From positions 1-25,922 of the forward strand of contig UQNV01000032.1 in NCBI GenBank assembly GCA_900542505.1: a stretch of DNA of 25,922 nucleotides, written 5' to 3'. The first letter of the stretch is position 1, and the number at the start of each line of letters is the position of its first letter. Shown piece after piece: positions 11,105-23,754 of this stretch. The translations under genes were made by a program, and so were the position numbers. Source of the DNA: an uncultured Alistipes sp. (lineage in GTDB: Bacteria; Bacteroidota; Bacteroidia; Bacteroidales; Rikenellaceae). The notes beneath the pieces were generated by a model, which was given only the letters and a program-made list of their open reading frames with translations, was not told the DNA's origin and did not search any database.

Positions 11105-11210
11105 GGAATTAATCTCGATTATTCCTATCTTTGGCAAAAATTAACCCCTAACCCCGAATGCCTATGATGTAATACGGAAGCGAATTTTTGTTATCCATTG
11201 GATTCATACA

Positions 11211-11411
11211 GTGCCGTCACCGCACGAAAAGCGCCGGCACGAACATATAAAAAGCGTTAACTTTACACTTGTCTTTCGAAATCTGGAAAATTTCAAGCAC
11301 AACAAGAGTAAGGTATAAACGCTCACGTTCCGCGTGGGCTTTACTCTGTTTGTTGTGCACGGTTATTCCAGAACCTCGAAAGGCAAACAAAAGTTCTGTC
11401 CCACGTTTTTT
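11211..11411 (+). ncRNA. Candidate structured RNA or leader, AT-rich island
   Basis: The stretch 11105-11484 holds no convincing gene but is dense in inverted repeats. The largest is 11297-11358: eight base pairs (GCACAACA with TGTTGTGC), a three-base bulge, seven more (AGAGTAA with TTACTCT), then an inner hairpin of GCTCACG with CGTGGGC around a TTCCG loop. Smaller hairpins lie at 11211-11240, 11278-11294 and 11369-11398. CCCACG followed by six T (11400-11411) looks like a terminator half and could pair with CGTGGG at 11333-11338. This could be a small RNA or a leader of the secreted-protein gene at 11485. The strand is inferred from the T-run. No good promoter is visible on plus; TAACTTTA at 11258 is only a near match. 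Confidence 0.45.
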
Positions 11412-11484
11412 ATATGCATCTATGAACGATTTTAAGTCGAGGGACACGGCGAGTAATATATATGCGAAATATAAAGAATTTGGT

Positions 11485-11787
11485 ATGAAAAAGTTTGTTT
11501 TGGCTTCTTTGATTTTTGCAGCATGCACTGTTGCTGGAGTAGGTCATGTCACAGCAAATACAGATCTATTTAGCATTGAGTCTATAATAGAAAATACGTA
11601 CTTAGGGAAAGTAAATCTATGTGATGGAAATGGAATAGTATGTTATGTTGGCGAAGCTTTCAAGAGTTCTAACGGTAGAATTTATGTGTCACTGGACAAT
11701 GCTACGTATTGGGCTCAGACATCGAATGATTCCCGATGGGCATATATGATTCGGTATAATAATAATTGGTGCTATTTTAATTTATAA
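11485..11787 (+). CDS. Small secreted cysteine-containing protein, unknown function
   Basis: The 100-residue protein begins MKKFVLASLIFAACTVAG, a clear export signal, probably cut near residue 24. The mature part (about 76 residues) has Cys46, Cys53 and Cys96 and is rich in Asn, Tyr and Trp. I do not recognise a domain. The overall form (short signal, small Cys-containing mature peptide) resembles the NVEALA-type exported peptides of Bacteroidetes, but the motif itself is not there. Base composition is far more AT-rich than the housekeeping genes on both sides, suggesting foreign origin. The frame is open upstream to 11269, but that part runs through the folded block and has no signal-like start, so the ATG at 11485 is preferred. 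It ends five bases before a bidirectional terminator. Confidence 0.7.
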   Translation: MKKFVLASLIFAACTVAGVGHVTANTDLFSIESIIENTYLGKVNLCDGNGIVCYVGEAFKSSNGRIYVSLDNATYWAQTSNDSRWAYMIRYNNNWCYFNL

Positions 11788-11791
11788 TATA

Positions 11792-11825
11792 AAAAGAGGC
11801 GGCTGATTTCCGGCCGCCTCTTTTC
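11792..11825. terminator. Bidirectional terminator between the small secreted gene and ffh
   Basis: AAAAGAGGCGGC (11792-11803) pairs with GCCGCCTCTTTT (11813-11824), giving T-runs on both strands. It serves the two convergent genes. Confidence 0.9.
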
Positions 11826-16701: not shown

Positions 16702-16775
16702 TGAGCTATGGTGTAATGGTAACACGTCAGATTTTGGTTCTGAAATTCCAGGTTCGAATCCTGGTAGCTCAACCA
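16702..16775 (+). tRNA. tRNA-Gln (anticodon UUG)
   Basis: The cloverleaf is complete. The acceptor stem TGAGCTA (16702-16708) pairs with TAGCTCA (16765-16771). The D-arm contains GTGTAATGGTAAC. The anticodon stem TCAGA/TCTGA encloses a loop with TTG at positions 34-36. The T-arm contains GGTTCGAATCC. The discriminator is A (16772) and CCA is encoded (16773-16775). The opposite strand gives the familiar false peptide beginning MVELPGFEPG, an artefact of antisense tRNA reading. Confidence 0.98.
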
Positions 16776-22285: not shown

Positions 22286-22345
22286 GTTTGTTTGTCTAAA
22301 ATACGGTTTTTCTTCCCAAAATCGGAGTTTGTTTGTCTAAAATAC
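22286..22345 (+). repeat. Direct repeats GTTTGTTTGTCTAAAATAC, candidate integrase arm sites
   Basis: Two exact 19-base copies lie at 22286-22304 and 22327-22345. A third partial copy (TTTGTTTGTC) is at 22245-22254, giving a spacing of 42 and 41 bases. Such spaced boxes beside an integrase gene suit arm-type binding sites. The last copy ends three bases before the integrase -7 element. Confidence 0.85.
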
Positions 22346-22347
22346 AT

Positions 22348-22384
22348 TACCTTTGTTTATCCTCGGGAATATTAAAACAGGAGG
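22348..22384 (+). promoter_or_regulatory. Integrase -7 element and Shine-Dalgarno sequence
   Basis: TACCTTTG (22348-22355) matches the -7 consensus. AGGAGG (22379-22384) lies eight bases before the ATG at 22393, a strong Shine-Dalgarno that is rare in this window, and it fixes the integrase start. Confidence 0.7.
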
Positions 22385-22392
22385 AAAAACAT

Positions 22393-23754
22393 ATGGGAAG
22401 ACCGAAAAGACTATACCCGCTTGGCAGATACCGGCTCCGTGTCCCCAAAGATGCGGAAGCGGACAAAGCCTACCCTGTCGTATTGGAATATACCTGGAAC
22501 CGACAGATTATCCGTAAAACGACAAACGTCTTTGCAAAGATTGCCGACTGGAACCAGAACGGGAATCAAGGACGTGGTGAGCTGCGTGTCAGTTACGGAA
22601 GCGAGTATAAACGTCTTAACCAGCTTCTGCTGGCCCGTGTTGAACGGATTGACAGTCTGCTTGCGGAGTATAATGAGAGGAATCCGAATCAGATTACAGC
22701 CGAAGTTGTGGCGGGCTTCCTTGCAGACAAGCCGCTTGCACGGCGAGACCAAGGGAAGGATTTTGTGGAATTTACTTTGGAGCGCCTTTCGTCCGATTAC
22801 TCCCGAAACAGAATTGGCAGGAGCCGTTATGAAAATGGCAAGAGTTGCATGAATATCTTCCAGACCTTTCTACGGGCAACCAAACAAGGGTCCTATCGAC
22901 CCGATGCAATCTATGTAGGCGATATGACTCCGGAACTGCTGGACAGCTACATAGCTTGGCGTAGAGACGTAAAGTTGAACAGTGATGCGACAATTAACCA
23001 TGCCTTGACGCCGATATTGAAAGCTTGCGCCTATGCGAGCGAGCTGGGTATGATGGAACCTGCAGTCAATGCCAGAATTCAGGATATGCGTATTGTGTCA
23101 AAAGTTTCGCTTTCGGAAGAGGAAGTTGAGTTTGATGGCAAAAGTCTGTCCAAGGAGCAAATGTTATCTCTTCTTGAATATTACAAGACATGTCTTGAAC
23201 CTCGCCGTAAGGAGTTTCTGGAAATGTTCTTATTTGCTTTCCATGCCTGCGGACTCCGTGTAGTGGATGTGATGACCTTGCAATGGAAACATATCGATTT
23301 TTCCCGGAAAGAGTTGCGGAAAATCATGATTAAGACGAACAAACGTCACGTGATTCCACTAACGGAACCTGCCTTGCATATACTACATCGGTGGCAGGAG
23401 AAACGTGCCGGATGCCGGTATGTATTCAACTTAGTAAAGGATGATCTGGATCTTGATGATGCAGAGGCTCTGTACAAAGCCCGTAACAATGCAACGAAAT
23501 GTATCAATCAATCGCTGGCGGTTGTCGGAGAACAGATAGGGCTTCCGTTTACCCTCTCAATGCATGTGGCCCGGCATTCGTTTGCGGTCTTTGCACTGAA
23601 CAAGGGACTTTCCATGTCGGTTGTCAGTCGTTTGCTCGGCCATGGAAGTACGGATGTCACCGAAAAGGTATATGCCAAATTCCTGCCCGAAACGCTGTCG
23701 GCGGAAGTGGCACGTCTGAAAGAGGATTTTGCATCTCTGGAAATTGTCTCATGA
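22393..23754 (+). CDS. Tyrosine recombinase / integrase of the mobile element
   Basis: The 453-residue protein has an N-terminal arm-binding domain (about 1-120), a SAM-like core-binding domain (about 122-230) and a C-terminal catalytic domain. The catalytic set is complete: Arg289 in ACGLRVVDV, a Lys in the KTNKRHVIPL hairpin (314-323), HVAR (His391, Arg394), His417 in LLGHGST, and the nucleophile Tyr427 in EKVYAKF. It should cut and rejoin the element's att sites. The frame opens at a TTG at 22333, but the Shine-Dalgarno and domain start favour 22393. Codon use differs from the chromosomal genes upstream. The arm-like repeats lie directly upstream. Confidence 0.96.
   Translation: MGRPKRLYPLGRYRLRVPKDAEADKAYPVVLEYTWNRQIIRKTTNVFAKIADWNQNGNQGRGELRVSYGSEYKRLNQLLLARVERIDSLLAEYNERNPNQITAEVVAGFLADKPLARRDQGKDFVEFTLERLSSDYSRNRIGRSRYENGKSCMNIFQTFLRATKQGSYRPDAIYVGDMTPELLDSYIAWRRDVKLNSDATINHALTPILKACAYASELGMMEPAVNARIQDMRIVSKVSLSEEEVEFDGKSLSKEQMLSLLEYYKTCLEPRRKEFLEMFLFAFHACGLRVVDVMTLQWKHIDFSRKELRKIMIKTNKRHVIPLTEPALHILHRWQEKRAGCRYVFNLVKDDLDLDDAEALYKARNNATKCINQSLAVVGEQIGLPFTLSMHVARHSFAVFALNKGLSMSVVSRLLGHGSTDVTEKVYAKFLPETLSAEVARLKEDFASLEIVS

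Follow-up and report, generated by a model that had tools for sequence, protein, structure and literature searches.

Bacteroidota largely translate their mRNAs without Shine-Dalgarno pairing. The structured RNAs described in this phylum include Flavo-1, whose matches in F. psychrophilum fall on several 5' transcribed regions (PMC9723704), and the short RNA FopS (~65-70 nt) consists of a single-stranded 5' stretch and a terminator (PMC11697453). Here we describe an element found in 25,922 nt of DNA from an uncultured Alistipes sp. (contig UQNV01000032.1; the whole stretch is referred to as the window): a 173-nt rod at 11244-11416 on the plus strand, flanked by the minus-strand genes era and ffh. 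The rod probably belongs to a portable family of cis-acting, structured 5' leaders of Bacteroidota that control the translation of accessory genes. Its structure, its covariation, a long-range pairing of one bulge, an upstream micro-open reading frame (micro-ORF), the spacing to the gene behind it and, in copies from the nearest genus, an enrichment of secreted proteins are supported by computation, best in that genus. From these we infer expression, control of translation and the existence of a triggering signal.

A sequence-only reading of this DNA had reported a nest of inverted repeats at 11211-11411, arranged as four hairpins, as a candidate structured RNA. The repeats are present, but not as hairpins in a row: a small 5' hairpin (GTGCCG/CGGCAC, 11211-11240), of which only some copies have a counterpart, stands apart, and the remainder nest into the single rod, whose parts were verified letter by letter. 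The plus strand of 11205-11425 folds at -79 kcal/mol, against -47.1 (sd 4.4) for shuffled sequences (z -7.2, 0/200 as good), which bears out the claim of more order than expected; the minus strand is less extreme (z -4.9, 0/200 as good). From the base upwards, the rod comprises a closing helix P1 (5' arm 11244-11257, 3' arm 11403-11416), whose 3' strand includes the T6 tract; helix P2 (11269-11279 with 11376-11386); helix P3 (11282-11288 with 11366-11372), with conserved internal loops on either side; helix P4 (11297-11312 with 11340-11347 and 11351-11358, around a 3-nt bulge at 11348-11350); and an apical helix P5 (11321-11339), in which GCTCACG...CGTGGGC is strongly conserved with one U.G pair. 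The composite stem reported at 11297-11358 therefore exists with its three-base bulge, although it has 24 pairs rather than 22 and an apical loop of 3 nt rather than five. A second local hairpin, AAAGC-GUUA-GCUUU, was also seen; this candidate would compete with P1. The rod scores 166.7 bits against covariance model R1, the training set of which includes the window copy; the family model for the genome scan was built from 30 copies.

Compensatory changes across relatives support the prediction of a structured RNA. RNAalifold recovered only 24 pairs from a MAFFT alignment because P4 was misaligned, and the structure was then set by hand from the window fold and pair counts. With this structure, 90.4% of cells in a 30-sequence alignment are paired, compared with 82.5% in shuffles. 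In a model-fitted alignment of 88 distinct sequences the figures are 89.7% and 71.3%, double changes occur at 50 of the 53 pairs, and slid controls drop to 40-49% paired. Both structures lean on the sequences tested and the fitted alignment is biased towards its structure, so the controls weigh more than the raw pairing percentages; in neither alignment did any of 500 shuffles reach the observed covariation score. P2 shows double changes in 8 of its 11 pairs (30-sequence alignment), and only the inner part of P4 entered the pair counts. P3 stands out, being paired in 99.5% of cells with no G.U in the larger alignment and a single U.G cell in the smaller, while the other helices have many G.U cells. 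Overall, the alignment fitted to the structure contains 566 G.U-type cells against 99 A.C-type cells, an excess that favours RNA and, in line with the earlier proposal, makes the plus strand the more likely source.

Rfam 15 reports no family above the gathering threshold on the element in the window; at E up to 10 there are sub-gathering chance matches only, among them AfaR overlapping the element and many over a terminator near 11795-11824, the true match being a tRNA elsewhere. In 18 further loci the sole match at gathering is a tmRNA (L119), and in nine loci searched at E up to 10 every match lies below gathering. The examined loci gave no match to 6S RNA or 6S-flavo (RF00013, RF01685), and Flavo-1 (RF01705) was reported at none of them under either setting. 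The signal recognition particle RNA was considered, as ffh adjoins, and rejected for want of an Rfam match. A literature search found no description of this RNA; it may be an unnamed entry among the 3161 RNAs predicted in PMC8040213, a source available in part.

The element has many relatives. In genomes chosen around the nearest one (G001), a 221-base blastn query matches 44 of 150. The covariance model matches all 71 nearest-genus genomes that are at least 90% complete, giving at least 486 matches (median 6, range 1-24 per genome; these counts may contain a few antisense twins). In a phylum sample, scoring only six candidates in each genome gave matches in at least 51 of 392 genomes. Scanning genome contigs for an exact pattern returned at least 120 stretches, and the model recovers the element in 120 of 120, three being cut by the stretch end; the 80 records listed, of which one genus was looked up, are taken to be Bacteroidota throughout, with Alistipes, Bacteroides, Flavobacterium, Chryseobacterium, Mucilaginibacter and Belliella among the genera. 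Hundreds of relatives stand in Bacteroidota ahead of many different genes. For comparative work, antisense twin matches were removed, identical cores were collapsed (227 to 214) and loci were added to reach 252 copies; 99 of 115 loci plus the window were scored with the model, and one later step used 90 sources. Of the 108 non-redundant copies that make up the "genus set", one is that of the window (genus assumed) and 106 were taken from genomes of the genus; the last, L014, derives from a different family within the order and was retained under a numbering rule. The remainder of the 252 forms the "other set", in which a few named contigs may be of the genus. A 103-codon minus-strand frame overlapping the element, raised earlier as a rival gene, is not conserved: any antisense frame is open across the element in 18 of the 108 genus-set copies, and any sense frame in 24.

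The bulge strand TGTCCC (11397-11402, plus strand; the larger bulge is written CTGTCCC) is complementary to GGGACA at 11441-11446, downstream of T6. Bulges match their own partners better than shuffled ones, both in the genus set (14.54 vs 12.51, sd 0.20; maximum of 200 shuffles 13.01) and in the other set (12.29 vs 11.29, sd 0.16), and the variants include TGTCCC/GGGACA, CAGTTCC/GGAACTG, GGTCCG/CGGACC and ATCGACTCC/GGAGTCGAT. A stem of at least four pairs surrounds the partner in 40/68 genus-set copies, compared with 23/68 at random places (28/53 vs 17/53 in the other set), which suggests that the partner sits in a hairpin loop, possibly that of 11436-11450 in the window, and that the interaction would hence be a pseudoknot. 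Since the bulge pairs with sequence beyond T6, we argue that the working RNA extends past this tract. For the class of copies ahead of SusC genes, no convincing partner was found within 400 nt downstream. In Flavobacterium-type copies (L118, L127, L088, L095, L103, L203, L227) an upstream TTTGCGATnCTTC could pair with GAAGCATTCGC; a SusC-like receptor ORF begins 189-225 nt downstream of these copies, and the stretch leading to it is alike in some pairs only.

Upstream of the rod, TATCTTTG (11126-11133, plus strand) matches the Bacteroidota -7 promoter consensus TAnnTTTG (PMC9723704) and would place the start of transcription near 11139; similar boxes are visible by eye ahead of many copies, although uncounted. 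It is followed at 11159-11172 by TGCCTATG, containing the micro-ORF ATG ATG TAA (11164-11172). CCTATG is found upstream in 71 of the 108 genus-set copies, and in 69 of these 71 an in-frame stop follows after one to six codons, in 46 after exactly three. Frame +2 stops within that range in only 31/71, and the binomial value of 1e-22 against this rate is inflated by kinship among the copies. L043 was scored as an exception, though ATGAATAAATAA stands further upstream. The micro-ORF differs in length among copies but remains in frame, which translation explains better than a fixed motif does; its residues are variable, with no run of one amino acid. At a group of G049 loci (L239, L242, L245-L249) the element has no secreted gene behind it, and the readable copies place the promoter box right at the hairpin (TTTG, then TCCCA/TCGCA/TCGTA, then GACAT).

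The sequence-only reading held that neither flanking gene explains the structure, having missed a plus-strand gene at 11485-11787 that starts 68 nt after the rod. It encodes a 100-aa, secreted-looking protein with no Pfam match, an orphan for which three clusters were found, its own included. This arrangement recurs in the genus set, where a same-strand ORF of 40 or more residues starts at +15 to +130 in 94 of 107 copies (median 54), compared with 35/107 in a mirror control. The downstream proteins are signal-like in 76/94 cases against 60/273 control ORFs, and a lipobox-like motif is present in 41/94 against 16/273. Signal peptides were called with a simple script of our own rather than SignalP, and its ORF selection passed over genes behind L065 and L244 that appear in a separate listing. 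Covarying structure with a same-strand gene at a set spacing, as expected of a cis-regulatory leader, is thus seen in the genus set and much more weakly in the other set. There, 112 ORFs were scanned, each the longest that starts within 420 nt of its copy, a choice that favours long genes; a SusC-type TonB plug domain occurs in 30 of them, and sigma-70, response-regulator and thioredoxin-like families account for 4-6 each. These come from 112 of 125 references, 13 short or cut ones having been dropped by eye. The upstream control, cut at 1300 nt, has the plug domain in at most one of 117 ORFs, a rough figure drawn from its absence among the 25 commonest families listed. ORFs upstream of other-set copies are often of Cro/C1-type helix-turn-helix (HTH) character (HTH_26 in 9/117), with some AAA_15/AAA_21 ATPases and transposases, which suggests island locations. 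The element also occurs on three viral-collection contigs (L236, L237, L238), in L236 ahead of a secreted-looking ORF. Elsewhere in the window, 22333-23754 reads by eye as a tyrosine-recombinase-like integrase ORF, ~5.5 kb from a tRNA gene at 16702-16772.

Comparison of copies suggests that hairpin and gene are separate modules recombined during evolution. The position between era and ffh is common to the window and nine genomes. Here, two trios share hairpins (window/L032/L040 at 95-97% identity, L010/L036/L008 at 95-99%), and within neither do any two downstream genes cluster together, L040 having no convincing downstream gene. Conversely, L010 and L032 have different hairpin types and related genes. 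Alignment of these copies mostly ends after TTTATATG, the 3' edge of the hairpin, past which L010, L036 and L008 retain a short shared stretch at the pseudoknot partner. Identity between hairpins is not correlated with identity between era genes (rho -0.14, p 0.36, 45 non-independent pairs): between window and L032 era is 0.77 and the hairpin 0.97 identical, between window and L008 0.85 and 0.76. Elsewhere, L005, L039, L017 and L048 have near-identical hairpins in flanks that are unrelated except for short motifs. One near-identical leader type (L072, L279-L282) precedes erm(F) in G001 (L072, C2), the beta-lactamase MUN-1 on plasmid pBUN1 of B. uniformis (L280) and, on a plasmid of P. distasonis, a DUF4433 gene; two others carry it ahead of lipoprotein-like genes. 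A further copy of this type, L284, has no gene starting close behind. A mobile-type leader matches seven plasmid records, and the window leader gave no blastn match to phages and plasmids. Just upstream of the leader, pBUN1 carries the end of a MobV relaxase gene, as does L072 by DNA similarity. Two observations weigh against full independence: hairpins that precede genes of one family are somewhat more similar than the rest (mean 0.72 vs 0.66), and among the most similar pairs many have their gene in common. Part of this pattern could also arise if the hairpin were under strong selection while its flanks decayed quickly, an account that fits the mismatch with era divergence less easily.

Taken as a leader, the element may work as follows. 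A ribosome would load or pause at the micro-ORF at the start of the transcript, the rod would fold, and the bulge would pair with the sequence whose end lies 38 nt ahead of the start codon, keeping the region of initiation either open or closed. The balance would be tipped by something bound at the conserved internal loops beside P3. In the window, the gene so controlled would be that of the small secreted protein. Several observations weigh against this reading. The loop hairpin 11436-11450 lies outside the minimum-energy fold of the window, where a competing fold wins in silico. CCTATG is lacking in 37 of the 108 genus-set copies, and a stop within six codons is found in frame +1 too (55/71), mostly because ATGA contains TGA. 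In the other set signal-like proteins are not enriched (25/76 vs 125/420 controls), gene starts at +15 to +130 give a weak signal (76/140 vs 53/140 mirrored), and SusC-like genes begin ~190-400 nt past the element. The genes behind the element form 108 clusters among 180, a diversity unlike that of a one-ligand regulon, and 7 of the 22 G049 copies listed have no close gene. Finally, the copies are kin, and the statistics overstate their independence.

Other explanations account for parts of these data. It is rather doubtful, though conceivable, that in addition to acting as a leader the hairpin marks the fixed edge of a platform for gene exchange throughout Bacteroidota. On this reading cargo would be swapped in directly behind the hairpin, namely secreted-protein genes on chromosomes and, on plasmids or mobilizable units, genes for resistance, DUF4433 and lipoprotein-like products; hairpin types would also move between loci, and the whole would form a cassette system with no known integrase. 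The near-identical hairpins in unrelated flanks (the L005 group and the mobile-type leaders) and the absence of correlation with era would also suit a small mobile or gene-converting hairpin, MITE-like or retro-copied, that is kept by spreading, with regulation secondary. This is improbable given that features external to the hairpin (the promoter box, the micro-ORF, the spacing and the partner in the pseudoknot) are nevertheless kept, and that secreted genes are enriched. A folded single-stranded-DNA recombination site of the attC type, marking cargo entry, would explain why homology mostly ends at the 3' edge with different genes beyond; the excess of G.U-type over A.C-type cells favours RNA, and by eye no second element stands at the displayed cargo 3' ends (no integrase link was tested), making such a site the most improbable of these explanations.

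Two further proposals concern the fate of the RNA. The free RNA of 140-200 nt ending at T6, as first proposed, would be a trans-acting small RNA (sRNA) or protein-binding RNA released by termination or processing. The family is indeed multi-copy, as are known Bacteroides sRNAs such as FopS (PMC11697453); P5 is strongly conserved; and most of the seven G049 copies without a nearby gene have the promoter box right at the hairpin. Nor does the terminator scan, which raised no flag at T6, count against release, as it detects only simple hairpins with 3-8-nt loops and is unable to judge the long rod. However, the bulge covaries with sequence ~30 nt past T6, and a same-strand gene stands at a set spacing behind the genus-set copies, so that free release at T6 is quite improbable; stand-alone RNAs of the family may also exist. 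A long, near-continuous duplex ahead of a gene might also be cut by RNase III or shield the 5' end of the mRNA, a very unlikely explanation since the conserved internal loops, near-pure Watson-Crick P3 and pseudoknot exceed the needs of a cut site.

The leader reading carries several implications. A conserved, multi-copy RNA of Bacteroidota, a phylum dominant in the gut and the environment, that lacks an Rfam 15 match would represent a missing layer of gene control, affecting acquired genes as well as surface proteins and nutrient receptors. The element would also provide a concrete test case for how a frame of about three codons and a long-range pairing set translation where Shine-Dalgarno pairing is largely absent. 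That leader and gene are exchanged independently points to a way in which acquired genes could receive functional expression signals immediately.

Integron platforms consist of a fixed, promoter-bearing module followed by exchangeable genes, a plan that this family shares; here no integrase was identified and the pair types favour RNA. Leader-peptide attenuators likewise place a short ORF ahead of an RNA structure and a gene, but the ORF here has one to six variable codons and no run of a single amino acid. Flavo-1 is, like this element, a structured RNA of Bacteroidetes, from which the lack of an RF01705 match separates it. FopS and GibS (RF04182) are multi-copy RNAs of Bacteroidota tied to SusC expression (PMC11697453); they join a short single-stranded seed to a terminator, unlike the nested 173-nt rod, and the sole GibS match in the window lies off the element, over the downstream terminator and far below gathering. 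A metabolite riboswitch would be expected to serve a shared pathway, and the downstream genes here span many families. With riboswitches and ribosomal-protein leaders the family has in common a conserved structure ahead of a same-strand gene start; it differs from them in that it occurs many times per genome, precedes a diverse set of genes that are exchanged at the edge of the hairpin, has a micro-ORF upstream and matches no Rfam family.
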